From Methanocella arvoryzae MRE50 (GTDB lineage Archaea > Halobacteriota > Methanocellia > Methanocellales > Methanocellaceae): DNA of 64,000 bases. A model generated the notes under the pieces. That model worked only from the letters and a program-made list of their open reading frames with translations, was not told the origin of the DNA and ran no database searches. The translations under genes were made by a program, and so were the position numbers. The stretch is from positions 1,054,001-1,118,000 of the forward strand of contig NC_009464.1 in NCBI RefSeq assembly GCF_000063445.1. Direction: 5' to 3'. Shown here piece after piece: positions 22,317-47,463 of the stretch (position 1 is its first letter; each line of letters starts with the position of its first letter).

Positions 22317-22465
22317 GCGGGGGCCAGAAGTAGCGCTCGTACCGTAATAAGCTCTTTTACCCCCGCTGGTCATGCGTTTTTACCATTAACGCCAGTACAG
22401 GGACACAAAAAGTTATAATGTATAATAACTAAGGTAATGCAAGTATAGCTACAGGAAATATAACA

Positions 22466-22477
22466 AAGTATATATCA
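22466..22477 (+). promoter_or_regulatory. TATA box for coiled-coil operon
   Basis: AAAGTATATATC, preceded by AACA, predicts a start near 22498, 40 bases before the ATG at 22538. A second TATA-like sequence (AGTTATAATGTATAAT) lies at 22411-22426, so two promoters are possible. Confidence 0.55.
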
Positions 22478-22537
22478 AAGAATTTTTGAATATTAACGGT
22501 AGCTTTAAAAGCGAAATAACCAAGGTTGGGATTCATA

Positions 22538-25500
22538 ATGGGTTTATTCGACAGAAAACCGAAGAAAGACGAGTCAAAACCGGCAAAAACGAAAGAAGAC
22601 GACGAACGGCTGAAGAAAGAACTCGAAACACTCCAGTCTATACTTTCGAAGAGCGAACCTCCCAGGCCGGAGGCTTCGACGAAAGCTGAGCCTGCAAAGG
22701 CAGAGGCTAAGCCCGGAAAGGCACCTGAGAAGCCGGCTGAAAGGATGCCTGCACCCGCTGGCAAGACCCAGATCCCAAAGCCGCAGGCTGCTCCGCAGAA
22801 AATGCCGGAGAAAGTAGAGAAGATCGAAAAAGCACCTGCACAGAAGCCGCCGGTCAGGCCGTCGGTGCCGCCACTGCAGAAGCCTATTTTGAAGCCTAAC
22901 ATATTACATTCATCCCAACCCACACAGCCCCCAGCCCCAACCTCAGCCCCGGCCAAAGCGCCAGAAAAGATAGAGATCAGGGAAGCGCCGGTCAAGCCGG
23001 CAGCCGCCCAGGCCGAGCAGGCCATCGGGGAAGCCAGGCCTGCCCTGCAGCCGGACCCCGCTTTAGTGGAAGAGCTGAAAGCGCTGATCGAAAAGCAGAG
23101 CGCAGACTTCGAGAAGCAGCGCAGTGAAATCGAAGCTCTCAGGAGCGAGCTTAAGCAGCAGAACGAGAACCTCGCAAAACAGAACGAGGAGCTGATCCTG
23201 AAAGTCGCCAGCATGCAAGCCCTGATAGAGAAACATGGGACAGAGATCGAGAAGCTCGAGGCCGAAAAGCCGGACCTCGAGAAGATCAAGGCGACAGCGG
23301 CGGCGGCAGCCGCCGAAGCCGTGGCAGCCATGCCGAAGGAAGAGGTAAAGCTCCCGGAGCTGCCGAACTTCAGCAAATACGAGGCCGATATCAGCGAGAA
23401 CCGGGCCATGATCGACACCCAGCGCCAGACAATCATCGCGCTGCAGGACGAGATCAGCAAACTCAAGGACATCAGCTTCGAGGACTACATCGAACAGGAA
23501 AGGGAAGTCCTCGAGACGCTCGCAGTAGAGATCAAAGACCTGAAAGACACTGTATCCGGCTATGACGAGAAGATTGCTGCAGTAAGTAACACTGTAGCCA
23601 GCGTCTCCGAGAGTCTGAGCACCTCGAAGGCAAAGTCCGAAGGCATCGAGCACGAAACCTCGGCGATCACCGCCAGGCTCAACGAGTTCGGACAGGCGAT
23701 CGAAGCGCTCAAGAGCGCCGGGACGGAGCAGTCCGGAAGCGTCGAGCAGATCAAGACCTCCATTACTATCCTCGACAGCAAGATCAACTCGCTGCGGGAC
23801 AACATCATAGAGATCGGCGAGTCGAAGAACAACGCAGAGATCGAGTCAATCACCGCAGCCATAGCAGGCTACGAAGAAGAGATCAGGTCGCTTAAGGCGA
23901 CTGTAGATGCGATCACCGGCAGGGTAGACAGCAACGCCGAGGAACTCGCATCTGTAAAAGCAGCCATATCATCCGACATAGCCAGCGTCAGGGAAGCACT
24001 GGATGCCTCGAAGGATGCCCTGAATACCGGCATGTCTTCGGTCATGGCAGAGATCGCCACAGTCAAGGCGACCATCCCCGACATGGCCCACATCAAGGAA
24101 TCGATCGCATCCGACCTGTCATCGATCAAGGAATATGCCAGAGAATCCGTTGCCGCGGACATCACCAAGGTCAGGGAGTCCATGGCGTCCGACATTATGA
24201 GGATGTCAGACGACATCACACAGATGTCGTCCGACATCACCAGGATGTCGTCCGACATCACAAGGGTGTCGTCTGACATAGAAGCCGTGAAGTCGGATAT
24301 CGGAACGATGAATGACAGTATAGAGATCGTCAAGTCCAGCGTGGACTCGGTCAGGGCTTCGACGGCAGCCGACATCGAGAGAGTGTCGGCGAATGTCACC
24401 AGAGCCAGCGAGTCGCTGACCACAGATCTCGAGACGGTGAAAGCCAGCGTAGAATCCGTTAAGGCCGACGTTGAGCGCATGACAGACGACATATCAAGGA
24501 TGTCGTCCGAAATCGGATCTACGAGGGATAGCATAGAGATTGTAAAGTCCAGCGTGGACTCAGTCAGAGACACCATGGCAGCGGACATCCAGAGAATGTC
24601 CGACAGCATAGAAATCGTCAAGTCCAGCGTGGACTCAGTCAGAGACACCACTTATGCGGAGATCGAAGGCCTCAAGGGAGCCTCGCTCAACGATGTTGAC
24701 CGGGCCAGAATGACCACCGAGATCAGCCAGGTGAAAGAAGCCCTGACAGCCGAGGTCGCTGACGCAAAGAGCGAACTCATGGCGGAGATCAACCAGATCA
24801 AAGCTTCGACATCCGCAGACATCAGCCAGGTGAAAGAGTCGCTGTCGGCAGACATCGGCAGGGTGAAGGACACTCTTACAACCGACGTCGACACGCTAAG
24901 GGACTCGGTCAGGGCAGACGTATCCTCGATCAGAGAGATGACGAGGACCGAGATGGCCGACTTCAAGGAAGCCTTCGGGTCTGACATCAGGGCCTTCGAC
25001 GGCTACCGTGACGACCTGAACAAGCTCAGGGACAGCATGGAGCAGGTGAACTCGCTTAGCAAGGCAGTCATGGACTACCGGAGTGAGCTGAAGTCGATCA
25101 AGGGCATGGTGGAAAAGTTCGCCGAAGATGTAAAGCAGGCAAGGGAATTCGCCAAGGGCAGGGAGGAGATCCTCCGCCTCAAGGACGAATTCAGGCTGTA
25201 CACTAACGATATCAAGACTATCCGCGAGATCATCGGGGATCAGAAGGACGAGCTGAACGCCGTCAAGAAGACTCTCGACAGCTTCAGCGAGGAGTCCGAG
25301 AGGGTCACCCCGCAGGAAGCCAAGCTCATCAAGTCGGGCCAGTACCTGAAAGCCCAGATCGACCAGGTCAACAAGACCTTCTCCGACCTGGACGAGAGAC
25401 TCGCGGCCATCCGCAAGGAGTTCATCAACCTCAACAACATCGAGTACCGCTACCGGGCGCTTGAGGACAACCTGAACGCAATGGAGCGCAACCTCGAGAA

Positions 25501-27424
25501 CAAGATCGAGGTGGAGATGATCACCCGGGTCCGGGAGGCCGAGAGCGAACTGATCACCAAGGTCAGCGAGGTAGAGGCCAGCATCGCCCAGCAGAGCCGC
25601 GAGGCCAAGGATCTCCTGAAGGAGCTGGAGGATACCAAGGAAACCCTCACCAGCGAGCTGGAGAACACCCGCACCAGCCTGATGCAGGAACTCGAGGAAA
25701 CCCGTTCCACGGTCACCAGGGAAATCCAGGGCACCAGGACGGAGGTCAAGCACGACATCGAGGAGACCAGGTCGGAGGTCACCAGGGAAATGGAAGAGGT
25801 CCGGACCCAGGTATCCGCCGAAGTCGAGGATATCCGCACTACGGTCAAGAGAGAGCTGGACGATGCCCGCTCCAGGACTATCAGCGACCTGGACGACATC
25901 CGCAACAAGACGATCACCGAGATCAAAGACGTGAGCTCATCTGCAGTAGAGCGGGTGGAGAGCGTCAGCGCCATGACGATCGAGAGGATCGAGGATGTCA
26001 GCGTCAAGACGACCACCCAGATCGAGAATGGCAGAGTGGAAGCGGTCAGAGAGATCAGCGCAGTGAGCTCGGCAGCTACCAGGCAGGTAGAAGATGCCCG
26101 GGCATCCCTGCTCCGCCAGCTGGACGAAACCCGTGCCTCGGTTACCAGCCAGCTGGAAGAGACCAGCAGCACGGCAATCAGACAGCTCGAAGAGACGAAG
26201 GATATCACCCTGAAGCAGCTCGAAGAGACGAAGGATATCACCCTGAAGCAGCTCGAAGAGACCAGCCGTGCCACTATAAGGGACATGGAAACGACCAGAG
26301 ACTCTACCCTGAAACAGATAGAGGATAACAGCACTGCAGCCCTGAGAGAACTCGAAGAGACCAGAGACTCTACCCTGAAACAGATAGAGGATAACAGCAC
26401 TGCAGCCCTGAGAGAACTCGAAGAGACCAGAGACTCTACCCTGAAACAGATAGAGGATAACAGCACTACGGCCTTGAGAGAACTCGAAGAGACCGGCGCC
26501 GCATCTGCGAGAAGGATCGAGGAGACCAGCAGCACGGCCCTGAAGGAGCTGGAAACTGCACGGTCGGACCTCACCGAGCACGTCGTGAGCCTCAGGGAGA
26601 ATGCGATAAGGCAGATGGAGGAGACCAGAGGCGACGTCCTGAAATCCACGGCCAGCCTGAAGGCAGAGACGGTCAAGTCGATCAAGGACTCGACGGCCGA
26701 ATCGATCAAGGCAGCGGACGTTGCCAGGGAATCGCTCTATAACGCCAGAAACGAGGTGCTCACCGACGTCAGCGCTACCAGAGACGAGATCCTGAAGACT
26801 ACGGCGGAGCTCAACTCCGCATCCCGCAAGTCCCGGGAGGAAGTCGCCAGGATCGTCGGCAGCGTAAGCGAGGAGACCGGGGCCGCGGTCAACAAGGCCA
26901 AGACCGAGATATCGGCGATGATCAAGCAGGAGAGAGACAGCCTCCACGGCATCGTCGATACCCAGAAGAAGGAAGCCATCGAAGGCATGTACAAGGTCAA
27001 GGACGAACTCATCGTCTCCCTGCGGCAGACCGAGTCCATCGTGCTGTCGTCGACGGAGAACGCCCGGATCGTGGCAGAAAAGTCGATGGCCAAGACGAGG
27101 GACGAAATCCTGGACAGCATCAGGAGCACCAGAGAAGAGACCATCAAGAAGCTCCTGGATACCAGAGATGTAGTGATCTCCGCGGCTAACAACACCAAGG
27201 ACACCACGCTGGAATCGATGTTCAAGTCCAGGGACGAGGTCATCAACACAGTTAACACTGGCAAGGCTTCCCTGATCTCGGTCAGAGACGAAGCGCTGGC
27301 CCAGCTGAAGAGCACTCAGAAGGAAGTCGAGGAATCCATCAACAAGAAGCTTGAGTCCGACAGGGAGAACACCGAGAAGATCAAGCAGATCATGAAGACG
27401 ATGAACGAGCTGATCAGGGCATAG
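22538..27424 (+). CDS. Giant hendecad/heptad coiled-coil protein
   Basis: A 1628-aa protein of unrecognised family. Residues 1-35 are basic (MGLFDRKPKKDE); 36-175 are rich in Pro, Ala and Lys and look disordered; from about 180 to the end it is nearly all predicted coiled coil. Repeats change along the chain: 7-residue units (MSSDITR type) around 24230-24290, and 11-residue units (QLEETKDITLK and IEDNSTAALRE types) around 26100-26520. At residue 928 a segment AKLIKSGQYL followed by LDERLAAIRKEF matches the N-terminal part of the next gene's product, and both end in a related motif (KIKQIMKTMNELI). There is no signal peptide, membrane helix or enzyme motif. A scaffold, cytoskeletal or desiccation-protection (LEA-like 11-mer) role is possible, all inference. 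A TTG four codons upstream is an alternative start. Confidence 0.8.
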   Translation: MGLFDRKPKKDESKPAKTKEDDERLKKELETLQSILSKSEPPRPEASTKAEPAKAEAKPGKAPEKPAERMPAPAGKTQIPKPQAAPQKMPEKVEKIEKAPAQKPPVRPSVPPLQKPILKPNILHSSQPTQPPAPTSAPAKAPEKIEIREAPVKPAAAQAEQAIGEARPALQPDPALVEELKALIEKQSADFEKQRSEIEALRSELKQQNENLAKQNEELILKVASMQALIEKHGTEIEKLEAEKPDLEKIKATAAAAAAEAVAAMPKEEVKLPELPNFSKYEADISENRAMIDTQRQTIIALQDEISKLKDISFEDYIEQEREVLETLAVEIKDLKDTVSGYDEKIAAVSNTVASVSESLSTSKAKSEGIEHETSAITARLNEFGQAIEALKSAGTEQSGSVEQIKTSITILDSKINSLRDNIIEIGESKNNAEIESITAAIAGYEEEIRSLKATVDAITGRVDSNAEELASVKAAISSDIASVREALDASKDALNTGMSSVMAEIATVKATIPDMAHIKESIASDLSSIKEYARESVAADITKVRESMASDIMRMSDDITQMSSDITRMSSDITRVSSDIEAVKSDIGTMNDSIEIVKSSVDSVRASTAADIERVSANVTRASESLTTDLETVKASVESVKADVERMTDDISRMSSEIGSTRDSIEIVKSSVDSVRDTMAADIQRMSDSIEIVKSSVDSVRDTTYAEIEGLKGASLNDVDRARMTTEISQVKEALTAEVADAKSELMAEINQIKASTSADISQVKESLSADIGRVKDTLTTDVDTLRDSVRADVSSIREMTRTEMADFKEAFGSDIRAFDGYRDDLNKLRDSMEQVNSLSKAVMDYRSELKSIKGMVEKFAEDVKQAREFAKGREEILRLKDEFRLYTNDIKTIREIIGDQKDELNAVKKTLDSFSEESERVTPQEAKLIKSGQYLKAQIDQVNKTFSDLDERLAAIRKEFINLNNIEYRYRALEDNLNAMERNLENKIEVEMITRVREAESELITKVSEVEASIAQQSREAKDLLKELEDTKETLTSELENTRTSLMQELEETRSTVTREIQGTRTEVKHDIEETRSEVTREMEEVRTQVSAEVEDIRTTVKRELDDARSRTISDLDDIRNKTITEIKDVSSSAVERVESVSAMTIERIEDVSVKTTTQIENGRVEAVREISAVSSAATRQVEDARASLLRQLDETRASVTSQLEETSSTAIRQLEETKDITLKQLEETKDITLKQLEETSRATIRDMETTRDSTLKQIEDNSTAALRELEETRDSTLKQIEDNSTAALRELEETRDSTLKQIEDNSTTALRELEETGAASARRIEETSSTALKELETARSDLTEHVVSLRENAIRQMEETRGDVLKSTASLKAETVKSIKDSTAESIKAADVARESLYNARNEVLTDVSATRDEILKTTAELNSASRKSREEVARIVGSVSEETGAAVNKAKTEISAMIKQERDSLHGIVDTQKKEAIEGMYKVKDELIVSLRQTESIVLSSTENARIVAEKSMAKTRDEILDSIRSTREETIKKLLDTRDVVISAANNTKDTTLESMFKSRDEVINTVNTGKASLISVRDEALAQLKSTQKEVEESINKKLESDRENTEKIKQIMKTMNELIRA
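24230..24645 (+). repeat. Heptad-coding and 39-base repeats inside the giant gene
   Basis: Near-identical 21-base units (ATGTCGTCCGACATCACCAG type) run at 24230-24280. A longer block beginning ATAGAGATCGTCAAGTCCAG recurs at about 24319, 24534 and 24607, coding for the same SIEIVKSSVDSVR peptide three times. Confidence 0.75.
26183..26248 (+). repeat. Two 33-base direct repeats inside the giant gene
   Basis: Two identical 33-base units starting CAGCTCGAAGAGACGAAGG at 26183 and 26216 code for the 11-residue unit QLEETKDITLK twice. Confidence 0.85.
26300..26497 (+). repeat. Three 66-base direct repeats inside the giant gene
   Basis: Units starting GACTCTACCCTGAAACAG at 26300, 26366 and 26432 are almost identical and code for 22 residues each, i.e. 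two hendecads. Near identity at synonymous sites points to recent tandem duplication. Confidence 0.85.
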
Positions 27425-27434
27425 AGGTGTCGCC

Positions 27435-28403
27435 ATGGATTTCGAGAGCTACATTTCGAGAGAGCGGCAACTCATCGCCCGGCTGGACAAAGAGAGAAGC
27501 GACAGCAACTCTTACGAGCGGCGGGCAGACGTGGGCAACTACGAGCTCGCCGAGGACGAGATCCGCCTGCTGAAAGCCGGAGAATACGTCCTCAGCCGCT
27601 CGGAAGTCGCCGCCGAAGCCGTGATGGCCATCGATGAGAGACTGGCAGAGCTTCACCGGATCGAAGCCGACGCCCAGGCCCGCAACACAGAGTTCGTGCG
27701 GAGGGTCGAGGAGTGGGAAGCGAAGTTCAACCAGCGCTACACAGAGATCATGAATCAGATCGCCAGGGAGAGCTCGGAGGTCCATGCACGGACAGCAGAG
27801 CTGAACGCCCTGATTGAGGCCGCTAACAGGAATATCAAGCTCGTCAGCGACACCGCCGCAGAGAACGTCAGGAAGATCAGCGAAGCCTCGATTGCCGATC
27901 TCAAGAGTATCAGCGAAGCAACGGCAGAAGACATGAGGAAGATCAGCCAGACGTCCGTGACAGAGGTCAGGCAGATCAGTGAAACCGCCGTGGCAGAGGT
28001 CGGGAAGTTCAGCCAGACATCGATCGACAAGGTAAAGCAGATAAGCCAATCATCTGTTGACGATGTAAAACAGGTCAGCCAGGCATCCGTTGACGATGTA
28101 AGGAAGACCAGCGAGGCTACGATTGCAGAAGTCAGAGCTACGACAGCCGCATCGATAGAAGAAGCCAGGGTCATCAGCCAGGCATCGGTCGAAGAGCTGC
28201 AGAAGATTAGCGAATCGGCAGCCGCCAGTATCCAGGAGATCAGCGATTCTACCATAGCCGAAATCGCCCGCATGTCTGAAGACCTCAAGGCCTCGCAGGC
28301 AAAGTTCGACGCGTCCGTCGGCGACAAGCTCGCCCGGGACAAAGAAACGGTCGAGCGCATCAAGCATATTATGAAACAGATGAACGAAATGATCAAGATA
28401 TGA
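27435..28403 (+). CDS. Hendecad-repeat coiled-coil partner protein
   Basis: A 322-aa coiled-coil protein of unrecognised family, ten bases after the giant gene and surely co-transcribed. Residues 35-100 resemble residues about 920-990 of the giant protein: EIRLLKAGEYVL and IDERLAELHRIE against AKLIKSGQYL and LDERLAAIRKEF. Residues 134-276 are thirteen consecutive 11-residue units (KISEASIADLK, QISQSSVDDVK, QVSQASVDDVR and so on), a strict hendecad pattern without interruption. The last 24 residues (ERIKHIMKQMNEMI) match the giant protein's end. The two probably assemble through these shared parts. No signal peptide or membrane segment is seen; ATG start at 27435. Confidence 0.82.
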   Translation: MDFESYISRERQLIARLDKERSDSNSYERRADVGNYELAEDEIRLLKAGEYVLSRSEVAAEAVMAIDERLAELHRIEADAQARNTEFVRRVEEWEAKFNQRYTEIMNQIARESSEVHARTAELNALIEAANRNIKLVSDTAAENVRKISEASIADLKSISEATAEDMRKISQTSVTEVRQISETAVAEVGKFSQTSIDKVKQISQSSVDDVKQVSQASVDDVRKTSEATIAEVRATTAASIEEARVISQASVEELQKISESAAASIQEISDSTIAEIARMSEDLKASQAKFDASVGDKLARDKETVERIKHIMKQMNEMIKI

Positions 28404-30013: not shown

Positions 30014-30418
30014 ATGATGACAGGCAAAAATAGCTTTAGAATCTGCGCAGTGATCACATTATTCGTTATCCTTCTGGCAGCCATTGCTCCCGCTTATGCC
30101 GACCCTGTCTCAGCGTATGCCGCCGGCGTAACATCCCCGAAGCTCCTGAACTCGACACCAAATCCGGCGCTGGACGCTGCCGCCCTCGAGGCCGCCGGAC
30201 AGTATGGCGTGCCGTTCGATCGCGATGTACAGATCTCCCGGATCATCACCACAGAGGACGGACGGTACTACATCGTGGAATACAAAAACTATCTGCCGCT
30301 GGCCGGAGGCATCGAAGTCCTGGCGGAAAACGGCACGAAAGTGGCTAACTCTAGCCAGGCTAAGTCGATTTTGAAGGCCGTGGCGTGGACTGAGTCGATC
30401 CAGTCGCTCGAAAACTAA
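30014..30418 (+). CDS. Exported protein, N-terminal part before an in-frame TAA
   Basis: 134 aa of unrecognised family. Residues 1-29 are a clear signal peptide (a hydrophobic run ending APAYADP). The remainder looks like one small extracytoplasmic domain (ITTEDGRYYIVEYKN). The frame ends at TAA 30416-30418 but continues without further stops for 277 codons in the same frame, and the helical text on both sides (SIQSLEN, then DIAALEIIRDDTRNIRN) runs on smoothly. It is therefore probably the first third of a 411-aa membrane-anchored protein that carries a nonsense mutation, a sequencing error or a recoded stop. TAA is not the pyrrolysine codon. Confidence 0.7.
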   Translation: MMTGKNSFRICAVITLFVILLAAIAPAYADPVSAYAAGVTSPKLLNSTPNPALDAAALEAAGQYGVPFDRDVQISRIITTEDGRYYIVEYKNYLPLAGGIEVLAENGTKVANSSQAKSILKAVAWTESIQSLEN

Positions 30419-30472
30419 GACATCGCCGCGCTCGAGATCATCAGGGACGACACCCGGAACATCCGTAACACA

Positions 30473-31249
30473 GTGACGCCTCTCGCCAACCTTTCGAACA
30501 GCATCATCGACAATCTCAACCTGAAGCGGAGCCTGAACAAGTACGGGATCACCAACGAGTACGCCATCGGCCTCATCACCGGCACCGTCAACAGCACCAA
30601 CGCCGGGTACGAAGGCGCGGTCATCCTCATCAACAACCTGAACAACCAGCTGAACGACTTCAGCAACGCAACCGTCGAAGCCAACGAACGCCTGCCGGGG
30701 ATCATCTCGAGGTCGAAGGAAATAAAGAACGGCACAGGCTACGCTGACCCTGAGCTGCAGGACGATATTACGCATACGACGACGGACCTCGACGTCATGG
30801 AGGACCAAATAGCGAAAGTCCAGGGAGCGCTGGACAACATGTCGGACGTCGGAGATTTCCTGGCCTTTATCCAGCAGTGGGCGACAGGTTTGCTGGCTTA
30901 CGTGCCACTGATAGGAGGCAGCCTTCAGGAATACGCTGAATATCTGTTCGGCGTTGCGGAGGACTACCAGGAAAACGTCCTCAACCTCAAGGGCTATGCC
31001 AAAAACCTGCTCGACAACGTCCGGCAGGAGCAGCTAAAGCTAAGTTCAGTCAGCGCAGATGCGGGCCAAAAGACAGCAGAGCTCACCGGAGGCTGGAACG
31101 CCCGACAGACGGCGTGGGCCAAAATCTGGATATATGCGATCGCCATTGCGATCCTCCTCATCGCCGTGCCTGTAGCCCTGCTGGTAGCTTTCATCTACCG
31201 CAGGAACCTCTATACCATAGTAAAACGCCCTGTAGAGAAGAAGAAATAA
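30473..31249 (+). CDS. Membrane-anchored protein, C-terminal part after an in-frame TAA
   Basis: 258 aa from a GTG with no ribosome-binding site, in the same frame as the ORF ending at 30418; 18 sense codons lie between the TAA and this GTG. The chain is Asn-rich and helical (NNLNNQLNDFSNATVEANER), then has a short hydrophobic hairpin (WATGLLAYVPLIGGS), more helix, and one C-terminal transmembrane helix (IAIAILLIAVPVALLVAF) with a basic cytoplasmic tail (KRPVEKKK). With the preceding ORF's signal peptide this makes a type I membrane protein with a large outer domain. Translated alone it would lack an export signal. Family unrecognised. Confidence 0.6.
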   Translation: MTPLANLSNSIIDNLNLKRSLNKYGITNEYAIGLITGTVNSTNAGYEGAVILINNLNNQLNDFSNATVEANERLPGIISRSKEIKNGTGYADPELQDDITHTTTDLDVMEDQIAKVQGALDNMSDVGDFLAFIQQWATGLLAYVPLIGGSLQEYAEYLFGVAEDYQENVLNLKGYAKNLLDNVRQEQLKLSSVSADAGQKTAELTGGWNARQTAWAKIWIYAIAIAILLIAVPVALLVAFIYRRNLYTIVKRPVEKKK

Positions 31250-41979: not shown

Positions 41980-44900
41980 TCAGCCCGGCAGGGCAGTACC
42001 GGGCTGCTCCGAAGCTGCGACGGCAGGCAGCATGATCACGAACCTGCAGCCTTTTGTGTGCTCCCCGGCCACGCAGTCTTCCAGCCAGACTTTGCCGCCG
42101 TAGTCTTCGACCAGCACTTTCACCAGGTATAGGCCGAGGCCTTTGCCGCTGGTGCGGGTTTTTCCTTTCTGGAACCTGCTGAAGAGCCTCACCTTTAGCT
42201 CGTCGGGGATGCCCGGGCCATTGTCCTCTACTGACACGTAACAGTAGGGTTTCCCGTCGACCACCTCTTTTTTCAGCGTGATGGAGATGATCAGCTTGCC
42301 GAGAGAGTGCTTGATGGCGTTGCCGATGATGTTGGAGAAGACGTCGGTGAGCAGCTCGTTGGCCATCACGATGCACTTGCACCCGGTGTAGTTGATCTTT
42401 ATATCTCTGCCGACGAGGTTCGAGTAGGTCGAGACCAGTTCCCTGATCACCTGGTCGACGTCGGTTTCGTAGTGCCTGACGCCGCCCTCAATTACTCGCT
42501 GCAGCTTCCGAACATTCTCTATCAGCCTCGTGCTGCTTTGCAGTGCTTCCAGCGGCTTGGAGATTAGTTCCCTGCTGCTCCTGTCAAGGTCCATGGTGCT
42601 CAGGGCGAACTCCAGGAAGCCGATGCCGATCTGGTTCAGGTTCGTGATGTCGTGGCTCATCAGGTCCAGGTACATCTCGACCTGTGCTTTGGCCGCTTTC
42701 AGCCCTTCCTCCGCCCGCTTGCGATCCGTGACGTCGATCAGGATGCCCAGGCCGGCTGGCTGACCCTGGTACTGGAACTGTGTGACGGAGACATCGATCC
42801 ACCTCGTTTCACCGTCTTTCCGGACCATCGGATACTCGTCGTGGGTGGGTACGGCCTCGCCATTCAGCCGGCACTTCACCCGCTCCCTGACCTTTTCCCG
42901 GAACTCGGGGTGGACGATCTCTGCGATATCCATGGACAGCAACTCTTCGACGCTGTAGCCCAGGAGCTTCTCAGTAGCCGGGTTTGCGTAGAGGATTTTC
43001 TGGCGGTAGACAAGGATGCCGGCAGAGCTGGTCTCGGCCAGCGTCCTGAACCTGGATTCGCTCTCCCGCAGCGCATCGTAGACGTGAGCGTTCTCGATGG
43101 AGATGGCGGCCTGGTAAGCCAGTGCTTTTAAAAGCTCGAGGTTCTCAGGGGTAAACACGTTTGTGGCCAGGTTATTCTCGAGGTACAGAATGCCCGACAG
43201 GGCATCGTGGTGGACGATAGGAAGACAGAGCATAGACCTGGTACGATGCTCCGAGATATACGGGTCCGACCCGTAGATGCTGTCGTGGCACGCGTCGTTG
43301 AGCATGACTGGCGTCTTCGTCCTCGCCACGTAGTTGACTACGGAGACGGGGACCTCCCCGCTCTCCTCGATCGGCAGTCCCGGGAGAGTCTCGACCTGCG
43401 GGCGACCGATGACGCCTCGTGCCTGCACGAACAGCGAAGCGTTTCTTACCATCATCAGGATGCCCTTCTGGGCACCCGCATTCTCTATGGCGATGCTCGT
43501 GAGCCGGTTCAGCAGCTGCTCGAGGCGGATCTCCTGGGAGAGAGTGCGAGATGCTGCGATAATCGCCGCAGCGTCCAGCGAAGCGGCGCGTTCCCGGACG
43601 AGCAGGTACTTGTACTGTGCTTTGAGGTTCTCAGCCTTGCGTGAAGCGCCCCATATGCGATAGCAGTCGGTGGCATTGCGAAGGCTGACCCCTGCGAGAT
43701 CGTCCCGGCCCAGAGACAGGTAAAATTTGGCTTCCAGCTCGTAGGCCAGCGCTTCTTCGCTTACGAAGCCGTTTTCCCGGGTGGCCCTGATCGCATGACT
43801 GTACAGGGCTACTGCCTGGCCTATCTCGCCGGTCGCGCGGGCTAATTCGGCTTCTACTAAATCACACTTATGACTGAAGTTCAGGGGCGAATGGCTGGCC
43901 CGGCTATTCAGGTCAGCGAGGACCGATTTCGCCTTCTCGAGAAGCCATATTTTCTCGTGCTCCGCGGCGTTCGGGTAGTACGCCAGCAGTGCCAGCGCAT
44001 AATAGAAGAGAAAATCGGCGTAGTACAGGTAACCTTCGCCGGATTTTTCATATTCCGCACAGGATGCGGCGGACTCGATCGCGCCCCTGTAGTCGCCGAA
44101 CAGGTATTGTAGCCGGATTTTACAGTACAGGGTGCAGAAGGCGGGGAAATAATTCTTTTCCATTCTCCACCGGACAAGGGCGGTGGTCTCGTCCAGAAGC
44201 CTGCCATGTAGATGCCGTGGATCGGCGGCCTCGCCGGCCAGGTTAAGCGCAGCCTGTCCCCATATCCGGGCCAGATCGCCGTGCAACTCCAGCCTCAGCC
44301 GATCCATGGTATCCAGGCATGTAATCGCGCTCCTGCGGATCTCGTCGACCTGTCCGCCAGTGCAAAAGAGATAGCCGCTGTAGTGAACCGCGCTGGCAAA
44401 AGCGTATTCGAGGTCGCCGGTTTCCATGCCGGCCTGAGAGACTTCTTTCAGTGTCTTAAGCGAGTCCCGGGCATCCTCTTTCCAGGGCCTCACGAACACG
44501 TTGAAGAGGAAGTTGATCTTCGCCTCATGCTCCCTTGCCTTGTACAGCCTCTGCAGTTTCAGGGAAAGCTGTCCGAACCGGTAGCCGGTTTCGACGTCCC
44601 CGTACGGCCCGCATAGCAGCACTGCATACCAGCCGTATGCGAAGGCCGACATGGGCGAGTTACCGTGCTTCACAGAGATGAGGACCATCATCGAGATGAG
44701 CGCCGTGAGCAGGGTATAATTCATCCTGTACGCAGGCGCGGCTAGGCTCATCATCACCCTCATCAGCGTCAGCTGCCGGGCTTCTGTCATTGCGGGCAGG
44801 TAGGCAAGGTCCTCCACCCGCGGGATTTTCCTGGCAAGTTCCTGGCGTAGCTGCGCTGAGTACTCCTGAAGCGCTCCAGGCTCCCGGGGGAGCTGTACCC

Positions 44901-47463
44901 CCAGCAGGTCGAGCGCTTCCAGCCCCGCCTGGATAGCTTCCTCGTCCTGCCGTTGCGTCGCGTAGAAAATGACATGCAGCTCGTACACCCGCCCCCGGAC
45001 CAGCACGTCGTCCGTGTGCTGCAGTACCTCGCTGGACAGCAGTTCAGCCCTTTCGAAGTTCAGGCTGAGGTATTCTGCTTCGATGGCCTCCATGTACAGG
45101 TTAAGTGTCAGGTTGTGATACCTCTCCCACTTATCCGGAGGCAGCATCCCTATGCCCATGCTGAAGTACCAGATGGCTGCCTGATAAGCCGCCTCCCGCT
45201 TCGCCTTCTGCCCGGCGGAAAGATTTAGCTCGACCAGCCGGAGCCGCTCAGCTGCGCTATCCAGGTACTGGAAGCCCTCGTTGAGGTGGCTGACCAGGGT
45301 GAAGATCATATCTTCAAGCTCTGTTTCAGAGGTACTCTGCAGGAGCATCCGGCCCAGCTTCACATGCACGAGCTTTCGCTGCCGCCGGGGAAGTAAAGAG
45401 AGGGAAGCTTTCCTGACCCGGTCGTGCAGGAACTCGAACCGGCTCTCGTTTGCCTGCAGAGTCTCGCCCAGATCCGGGGAGATCGGTTCCCCGACAGGCA
45501 GGATCAGCCCTTCTTCGACCGCCGGCCAGAGGTGATCTTCGACTTCCTGGTCCGGCATCTCAGCTGCCGCTGCCAGTGTCCAGGTATCGAACTGGTTTCC
45601 GATGCATGCGGCCAGCGATAGCAGGTGTCTCGTTTTCTCGGGCAGCCGCTCGATCTTTTGCATCGCCAGCCTGACCACGTTATCAGTGATCCCCATGTGC
45701 TGAATGTGATCGACGTCCCATTCCCACTGACGCAGGTCGTAGTTGAAGGTGAGGTGGCCGGCTTCATACAGCGACTGGAGGAACTGTACAGCGAACAGCG
45801 GGTTACCCCCGGTCTTCTCGAAGATCAGGTTGGACAGAGGGCGGGAGAATGAGGGATCGCAGCGAAGCGTATCAGAGACTATCTGGTTGAGCGCATCCGG
45901 CGACAGGTTTTCCAGCTGGATAAACCGGATATGAGCCTGACTTCGTCTCAGCTCATCTATCGCCATGGACAGGAGGTGTCCGGGGCCCGTCTCAGTATTC
46001 CTGTACGCGCCGATAAACAGCAGGTACGGGTAGTCCTGTCCTGCCATCAGCGGCCTGAGCAGGTTCACCGTCGCGGGGTCGGCCCACTGCAGGTTGTCGA
46101 TGAAGAGGACGAGCGGATGCCCTTTTCCCGCTATCGATCTGACGAAGCTCAGGAAGACGAGCCTGAAGCGGTTCTGCGCTTCGGTGGGCCCGAGGTCCGG
46201 AACCGGGGGCTGCCGGCCGATGATGAGTTCCAGCCGGGGGATCATGCTGACCAGCAAGCCTCCGCTGGTTCCGACTGCCTGTAAAATTTTCGCCTTCCAG
46301 TTAGCTACGCTCTCCACGCTCTCGGTGAGTATCTGGTCGACCAGTTCGGTGAAAGCCTGGATCAGGGCATAATGTGGGGAGTTTTTCTGGTACTCGTCCG
46401 GCTTGCCGGTGATAAAATAGCCACCGGCTTTTCCGGCAAACCGCTGCACGTCGCTGACCAGCATGGTCTTGCCCACTCCGGGAGGGCCGGTAATCAGCAC
46501 AGCCTCGGAGCCACCCTCCGCAGCATCCTCTATCGCTTTGAGGAGCTCGACGGTCTCAGGTTCCCGGCCGTACAGCTTGCCGGGCAGCTGGAAGACTCCG
46601 GGCAGGTCTTCGAGGCCCGGCTGGAACGGCTCGACCCTGCCGGAGGACCGCAGCCGGCTCAAGGCCTTTTCCAGGTCCGCCATCAGGCCGTACGCTGACT
46701 GGTACCGATCTTCAGGGCTCTTGGCCAGCAGCTTCATCACGATGGCAGAAACCGCCTCGGACACCAGCGGATTGACCTCGTGCGGAGGCACCGGGTTTCT
46801 GGCCAGGATCTGGTGGGTGAGTTCTGAGCGGGAAGCCGCATAGAAGGGCAGCCTCCCGGCAAACATTTCGTAGAGTATGACGCCTGCCGAATAAAGATCG
46901 CTGCGATAGTCGATAGGGAGATTTATCCTTCCCGTCTGCTCGGGCGAAATATACTCCAGCGGACCTTCGAACATGTCGAGGCTCTCCCGCCTGACGACCC
47001 TGCCGCCGGCCACTGCCATGTCCAGGTCAATGATTGTGGCCTGCATATCTTTGTCAATGATAACATTGCTGCTGGTGAGGTTTCTGTGCAGTATTTTGTG
47101 GCGGTGCAGCTGATCCAGTGCGACGGCCAGGGACAAGGCTATCCTGAGCATGTTCTCGAGACTCAGTCGTTCCCGGAAGACCTCAGAGGCCGCCCTGCCT
47201 TCGACGTACTCAAGGACAATTGCCGGGCTGCCATCGATCGTCAGGTACTCCCAGGCTTTTCTGACGCCCGGCAGATCCAGTCCTTTCGCTATCTCGTACT
47301 CTACGTCAAGCCGCCCGGTCCCGCCATGGGCAGCATATCCGGGCTGAAGTACCTTGATTACTACGGGGCCGCCGTACTCCGACTCTTCCAGGAGGTACAC
47401 CAGAGTGCTGTTGCCCTCATAGAGTAGCGGAAGTGATGAGAGGTCTTCGCGGGTTACAATCAT
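41980..47463 (-). CDS. Giant hybrid sensor: protein-kinase-like, AAA ATPase, GAF, PAS and histidine kinase
   Basis: 1827 aa, cytoplasmic. Domains: residues 5-275 protein-kinase-like fold (VVIKVLQPG lysine kept; catalytic loop HRNLTSSN, with Asn128 where active kinases have Asp; DLD for DFG); about 300-640 predicted ATPase with P-loop ITGPPGVGKT (near 325) and Walker B LVLFIDNLQWAD; 650-1290 helical TPR-like repeats; 1310-1460 GAF; 1470-1590 PAS (SAGILVYRQKILYANPATE); then phosphoacceptor LMSHDITNLNQIG (His1604) and HATPase (EDNGPGIPDE, GKGLGLYLVK). The ATG overlaps the ramA stop (ATGA), making it the fourth gene of the methanol operon. It probably senses methanol, redox or energy state; no response regulator is nearby. 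Confidence 0.92.
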   Translation of the reverse strand: MIVTREDLSSLPLLYEGNSTLVYLLEESEYGGPVVIKVLQPGYAAHGGTGRLDVEYEIAKGLDLPGVRKAWEYLTIDGSPAIVLEYVEGRAASEVFRERLSLENMLRIALSLAVALDQLHRHKILHRNLTSSNVIIDKDMQATIIDLDMAVAGGRVVRRESLDMFEGPLEYISPEQTGRINLPIDYRSDLYSAGVILYEMFAGRLPFYAASRSELTHQILARNPVPPHEVNPLVSEAVSAIVMKLLAKSPEDRYQSAYGLMADLEKALSRLRSSGRVEPFQPGLEDLPGVFQLPGKLYGREPETVELLKAIEDAAEGGSEAVLITGPPGVGKTMLVSDVQRFAGKAGGYFITGKPDEYQKNSPHYALIQAFTELVDQILTESVESVANWKAKILQAVGTSGGLLVSMIPRLELIIGRQPPVPDLGPTEAQNRFRLVFLSFVRSIAGKGHPLVLFIDNLQWADPATVNLLRPLMAGQDYPYLLFIGAYRNTETGPGHLLSMAIDELRRSQAHIRFIQLENLSPDALNQIVSDTLRCDPSFSRPLSNLIFEKTGGNPLFAVQFLQSLYEAGHLTFNYDLRQWEWDVDHIQHMGITDNVVRLAMQKIERLPEKTRHLLSLAACIGNQFDTWTLAAAAEMPDQEVEDHLWPAVEEGLILPVGEPISPDLGETLQANESRFEFLHDRVRKASLSLLPRRQRKLVHVKLGRMLLQSTSETELEDMIFTLVSHLNEGFQYLDSAAERLRLVELNLSAGQKAKREAAYQAAIWYFSMGIGMLPPDKWERYHNLTLNLYMEAIEAEYLSLNFERAELLSSEVLQHTDDVLVRGRVYELHVIFYATQRQDEEAIQAGLEALDLLGVQLPREPGALQEYSAQLRQELARKIPRVEDLAYLPAMTEARQLTLMRVMMSLAAPAYRMNYTLLTALISMMVLISVKHGNSPMSAFAYGWYAVLLCGPYGDVETGYRFGQLSLKLQRLYKAREHEAKINFLFNVFVRPWKEDARDSLKTLKEVSQAGMETGDLEYAFASAVHYSGYLFCTGGQVDEIRRSAITCLDTMDRLRLELHGDLARIWGQAALNLAGEAADPRHLHGRLLDETTALVRWRMEKNYFPAFCTLYCKIRLQYLFGDYRGAIESAASCAEYEKSGEGYLYYADFLFYYALALLAYYPNAAEHEKIWLLEKAKSVLADLNSRASHSPLNFSHKCDLVEAELARATGEIGQAVALYSHAIRATRENGFVSEEALAYELEAKFYLSLGRDDLAGVSLRNATDCYRIWGASRKAENLKAQYKYLLVRERAASLDAAAIIAASRTLSQEIRLEQLLNRLTSIAIENAGAQKGILMMVRNASLFVQARGVIGRPQVETLPGLPIEESGEVPVSVVNYVARTKTPVMLNDACHDSIYGSDPYISEHRTRSMLCLPIVHHDALSGILYLENNLATNVFTPENLELLKALAYQAAISIENAHVYDALRESESRFRTLAETSSAGILVYRQKILYANPATEKLLGYSVEELLSMDIAEIVHPEFREKVRERVKCRLNGEAVPTHDEYPMVRKDGETRWIDVSVTQFQYQGQPAGLGILIDVTDRKRAEEGLKAAKAQVEMYLDLMSHDITNLNQIGIGFLEFALSTMDLDRSSRELISKPLEALQSSTRLIENVRKLQRVIEGGVRHYETDVDQVIRELVSTYSNLVGRDIKINYTGCKCIVMANELLTDVFSNIIGNAIKHSLGKLIISITLKKEVVDGKPYCYVSVEDNGPGIPDELKVRLFSRFQKGKTRTSGKGLGLYLVKVLVEDYGGKVWLEDCVAGEHTKGCRFVIMLPAVAASEQPGTALPG

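Follow-up and report, generated by a model that had tools for sequence, protein, structure and literature searches.

In the genome of Methanocella arvoryzae MRE50, a single contig of 3,179,916 bp, two adjacent genes 10 bp apart encode a giant protein and a small protein (Table 1), as the first-pass annotation of the window (the whole 64,000-nucleotide stretch of DNA analysed) had described. The start of the giant gene at 22538 (MGLFDRK) is correct because all orthologues in a four-orthologue alignment begin with the same residues. Four Methanocellales genomes were compared, M. arvoryzae MRE50, G001, G002 and G003. M. arvoryzae and G002 are the two genomes of genus g1, and G001 and G003, from the same family, form the other sister pair. 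The order cfbD-cfbC-cfbB-giant-small-L10e-aIF2beta is fixed and the pair adjacent in all four, the cfb names being ones that we assign by protein family and Pfam. By sequence comparison, the pair is thus conserved in every member of Methanocellales examined (4/4 genomes). The gaps of 165-383 bp between cfbB and the giant gene suggest that the latter is transcribed separately. The neighbouring genes, for F430 synthesis, a ribosomal protein and an initiation factor, give no clue to the function of the pair.

Other features were noted near the locus. An additional gene (L024 11594-12241, minus strand), which by reading we take to encode a fasciclin-like membrane protein, lies between L10e and aIF2beta in G001. 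Downstream of aIF2beta in M. arvoryzae (30014-31249, plus strand) are genes for a 134-aa protein, likely secreted, and a 258-aa protein with a single strongly hydrophobic segment at its C-terminus; neither gene gave a significant Pfam match or a tblastn match in the three orthologous loci. The strand opposite the repeats (22429-28396, minus) contains ORFs of up to 499 aa that are probably shadows of repetitive coding sequence, and a 1827-aa fusion of protein kinase, AAA-16 ATPase, GAF, PAS and HATPase_c is encoded at 41980-47463 (minus strand).

Table 1. Features of the giant and small genes, with positions in the window.
Feature	Position	Strand	Evidence
Giant coiled-coil protein, 1628 aa	22538..27424	+	ORF; orthologues in the other three genomes (1605, 1744 and 1494 aa)
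Tip MGLFDRKPKK and Pro/Ala/Lys/Glu-rich linker with conserved QKPILKPNI, residues 1-181	22538..23080	+	Four-orthologue alignment; distant homologues with similar MxLFKK tip and Pro/Ala linker
Heptad-type rod, residues ~310-916, period mostly 3.43-3.6	23465..25285	+	Periodicity scan
Core block, residues ~917-1006: predicted helix break, then TPQEAKLIKSGQYLKAQIDQVN...MITRVREAES	25286..25555	+	83-91% identity across genera; AlphaFold2
Hendecad array, ~34 units in one register, residues ~1020-1385	25595..26692	+	Periodicity scan and phase; DNA tandem units
Second conserved block DELIVSLRQTESIVLSSTENARIVAEKSMAKTRDEI..., residues ~1492-1587	27011..27298	+	73-82% identity (alignment A2)
C-terminal segment also found in the small protein, with amphipathic NTEKIKQIMKTMNELIRA at its end	27299..27424	+	Alignment, motif comparison, lipid-binding score
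Small miniature paralogue, 322 aa	27435..28403	+	ORF; orthologues of 256, 208 and 208 aa, each adjoining the giant
Thirteen hendecads of the small protein, residues 134-276	27834..28262	+	Periodicity; long array in genus g1 only

Modules and periodicity of the giant protein

The giant protein is modular, with a MGLFDRK tip, a Pro-rich linker, a heptad rod, a core block (a stretch of which can also be written VTPQEAKLIK..MITRVREAES), a hendecad rod and a near-invariant amphipathic C-terminus. The first-pass annotation took both proteins for almost pure coiled coil. This is right for the helical rods, but since the giant begins with ~180 residues of Pro/Ala/Lys-rich linker, which is probably disordered, it does not hold for the whole of that protein. 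Both proteins are nearly proline-free rods, the giant having only two prolines beyond residue 277, and neither contains cysteine. The pair has no enzymatic or membrane-spanning parts and no TM-like stretch was found in either protein, the maximum 19-residue hydropathy being 0.89 in the giant and 0.71 in the small protein. AlphaFold2 was applied to monomers, with one or four sequences. The single-sequence model of residues 800-1041 of the giant is broken at 918-924, directly before the TPQEAK helix.

The suggestion that the pair is built from both 7- and 11-residue repeats was borne out by periodicity scoring. In the giants of all four species, the hydrophobicity spectrum falls into two parts divided by the core block, with mostly 3.43-3.6 residues per turn on the N-terminal side and mostly 3.65-3.68 (11/3) on the C-terminal side. 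Heptads supercoil left-handed while hendecads run nearly straight and favour small residues in the core (PMC9858780). For the giant array (residues ~1020-1385) the peak power was 46 against a shuffle maximum of 9.9, with a lag-22 identity of 0.41. The thirteen units reported earlier in the small protein are also real, with a peak power of 11.7, where the best of 300 shuffles reached 8.6, and a lag-11 self-identity of 0.39; none of the 300 shuffled sequences reached the observed power. The unit of the small protein has V, I and I/V plus the small residues S/A/T, which by our reading may lie on one face. In the M. arvoryzae giant the 11/3 phase is steady over residues ~1030-1400 with one shift before the second conserved block, so that the giant has the longer array of the two proteins, ~34 units followed by more hendecad sequence up to the C-terminal end. 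At the DNA level, tandem repeats are seen at 26183-26494 within this array, with units of 66 bp (97%) and of 33 bp (100%), and these point to its recent expansion.

The small protein is a paralogue of the giant

Three collinear motifs are common to the two proteins, namely F[ED]xYIxxE[KR]xxL, E[AI]xLxKxGxYxx..DER and a stretch of ~40 residues at the C-terminus, and all scored above 200 shuffles except the middle motif in G001. As these motifs recur in the same order, the small protein is, on sequence, a miniature paralogue of the giant. The first-pass annotation had seen it as a reduced version of the C-terminal half, with a related C-terminus of 24 residues. Both the reduction and the shared C-terminus stand, but the latter extends over ~38-44 residues, and the additional motif at residues 1-23 of the small protein (residues ~312-334 of the giant) makes it a miniature of the whole rod and not of the C-terminal half alone. 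Similarly, the hendecad array that had been noted in it is long in M. arvoryzae but is not conserved, being shorter in G002 and absent in the two genera of G001 and G003, and the protein is 322, 256, 208 and 208 aa long in the four species. In the four-sequence AlphaFold2 model the small protein is a single long helix, in which residues 187-196 form a break of low confidence.

The C-terminal helix and possible lipid binding

In each of the eight proteins (giants and smalls from four genomes) the final 18 residues have a lipid-binding score D within 0.79-1.19, a value of at least 0.79 being found in 3.5% of the other windows of the same proteins, and three of five distant homologues have such a high-D C-terminus. 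The score allows that this amphipathic helix may bind membrane, though a protein-protein interface is equally possible.

Lipid-coat proteins had also been named among those with hendecads. On a lipid-coat reading the 11-residue repeats would lie on a membrane or a PHA or lipid granule, as in perilipin, apolipoprotein and phasin, and the amphipathic periodicity of 11/22 residues in apolipoprotein A1/A4/E (PF01442) and the perilipin 11-mers is indeed similar. The giant matched Apolipoprotein with 121 bits (5e-35), over the cutoff of 90, but the small protein reached 26 bits and the best orthologue stretch 50 bits; a single match over the cutoff was found in none of the four genomes, and the matches track the 11/22-residue periodicity. 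The small protein also matched Phasin_2 weakly (17.2 bits against 24.9), but class III PHA synthase (TIGR01836) is missing from the organism's own genome. Unlike the lipid-coat repeats, the hendecad arrays are acidic with a mean D of -0.18 to 0.01 by sequence score, half of the rod is heptad and so unaccounted for, and the small-protein arrays are missing in two genera. The lipid-coat reading is therefore unsupported, and a granule or lipid coat is improbable. Another ORF with apolipoprotein-like periodicity, of 706 aa, was seen in G003 (C3:133152-134099, L102).

Conservation and array length

The core block is 83-91% identical between genera, comparable to ribosomal protein L10e at 88-90%, and the second conserved block is 73-82% identical, while the hendecad arrays diverge. 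Measured from one invariant anchor to another, the giants of G001 and G003 differ by 88 and 22 residues and the two g1 small proteins by 66 residues, all multiples of 11. Between the sister pairs the distances differ by 11n+4 or 11n+7, offsets that coiled-coil spacing allows. Although the comparisons are few, array length thus appears to change between sister genomes by whole 11-residue units with the register preserved.

These observations bear on the suggestion of stress protection, according to which the pair would be an LEA-like desiccation protectant. The repeats are hydrophilic, Cys-free and 11 residues long, and LEA_4 (PF02987) gave 17.1 bits, but this is below the cutoff of 51.1, and a core conserved like a ribosomal protein together with a preserved register argues for a defined structure. 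A protectant role is highly improbable, and of the roles first put forward a filament or scaffold is the most plausible.

Comparison with known families

No family had been recognised in the first-pass annotation, and on the searches made the pair contains no domain of known function and could be assigned to no known family. A 2023 survey of hendecad families by Martinez-Goikoetxea and Lupas is said to cover large hendecad proteins, and the present family may be among them. The candidate families were rejected because their defining features are missing from the pair, whether the Walker A/ABC signature, a DivIVA-like motif, lipid-binding repeats, a score over the LEA cutoff or a signal peptide or membrane span. 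A clear match to a chemoreceptor, SMC or S-layer protein was looked for and not found by Pfam, Walker A/ABC signature and hydropathy checks; a chemoreceptor or S-layer stalk was rejected as no such Pfam match, signal peptide or transmembrane helix was found. Tetrabrachion and other archaeal surface stalks likewise present a long non-heptad coiled coil in an archaeon (PMC11676326), but the pair has no signal peptide or membrane segment. Weak coiled-coil matches to PADLOC ZorA tails, JetC and LmuB were discounted, the pair having neither a membrane segment nor an ATPase motif. A PDB sequence search returned nothing meaningful.

Very long coiled coils with a central interruption are also found in SMC, Rad50 and arcadin-4, and weak NCBIfam matches to SMC, Rad50, ASRP and arcadin-4 cover the heptad half, which might suggest a chromosome-associated rod organising DNA or a division structure. 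However, all of these scores are far under the curated cutoffs, ATPase heads are missing and the Walker A/ABC signature is absent from the eight proteins. Furthermore, the matches are limited to coiled coil, where composition yields such scores, and Rad50 appeared as a false match in our own profile search too. We consider a chromosomal role to have little probability.

The best analogy is with Scy/FilP, the polarity scaffold and filament proteins of Streptomyces in the DivIVA-like superfamily (PMC9858780). There too a giant and a small paralogue are encoded near each other, heptads are mixed with long hendecads and no enzymatic domain is present; the extended hendecad segments of the Scy/FilP branch were found in the pair by the periodicity scan. 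The superfamily is marked by an N-terminal RGYDxxEVD-type motif ahead of a dimeric coiled coil (PMC9858780). None of the eight proteins contains the motif GY[DN]xx[QE]V[DN], and Pfam gave no DivIVA match, so any likeness would be convergent. The pair differs also in being archaeal and in having an MxLF tip, a Pro-rich linker and a C-terminal helix peculiar to it.

Distant relatives

Beyond Methanocellales, a single related gene is present in six of eight genomes of genus g83 (family f30, another order), encoding about 440-500 aa where complete. Hence the co-occurrence of the two genes holds in Methanocellales, where they are adjacent in 4/4 genomes, but in g83 one gene combines the MxLFKK tip, a Pro/Ala-rich linker, an ALIKAGKYL core and a similar C-terminus. 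These homologues are without the giant arrays, and no partner gene was detected. They are placed beside DUF7121 genes, assigned by Pfam, and genes that we have named mptA-like ourselves. In two g83 loci (L053 3819-5416; L055 3110-4701) the homologue stands beside two more coiled-coil genes, one of them DUF7121-like. In the sister genus g138 the DUF7121-like and mptA-like genes are 52 bp apart with no related gene between them, and from this comparison of gene order it would have been either gained in the g83 line or lost in the g138 line.

Outside Methanocellales and g83, no convincing relatives were found in ~390 other genomes of the phylum using the small protein and profiles A1, A4 and A6. 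The weak profile matches inspected were spurious, L032/L061 being presumably Rad50 and L062 lying inside what we read as a RuBisCO-like locus. Viral contigs and plasmids gave no match. Of two narrow pattern scans reaching other phyla, the first found zero loci and the second one, in Methanocella sp. PtaU1.Bin125, which is G002 and already among the four.

The main rival to a structural role in the cell is that the pair serves as an assembly scaffold for a specific cytosolic complex, of translation or methanogenesis enzymes, and not in cell architecture. The invariance of the cfbBCD and L10e/aIF2beta neighbours speaks for it, as does the possible resemblance of the near-invariant core and C-terminal blocks to binding sites, but the probable separate transcription from cfbB and the different neighbours of the distant homologues speak against it. 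This rival is unlikely.

Proposed function

We tentatively favour an intracellular, two-component, end-anchored rod scaffold or tether, at a probability just short of even. The giant would form oligomers, probably parallel dimers or larger, and these would make a stiff rod about 200 nm long if 1300 helical residues each contribute 0.15 nm. One half of this rod would be left-handed heptad coil and the other nearly straight hendecad coil, with a hinge beside the near-invariant core block. The tip would be carried on the flexible linker at the N-terminus, and the conserved amphipathic C-terminus may contact membrane or a partner, in which case the rod would be a tether or the building block of a network of filaments. 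The miniature paralogue, which keeps the core helix and the C-terminus, would act by capping or spacing the giant or by assembling together with it. By analogy, the pair might further be an independently arisen archaeal counterpart of Scy/FilP, serving the cytoskeleton or polarity as an end-anchored scaffold; growth of its rod by whole 11-residue units, leaving the register unbroken, would set the length as in a molecular ruler. This is possible, if doubtful.

To our knowledge, little is known of how methanogen cells are organised inside. The giant coiled-coil pair, present in single copy at a fixed position across the order and with a core constrained like a ribosomal protein, offers a concrete candidate for a component of a cytoskeleton or tether, and its register-preserving repeat expansion supplies a natural series in which the growth of hendecad rods can be studied.
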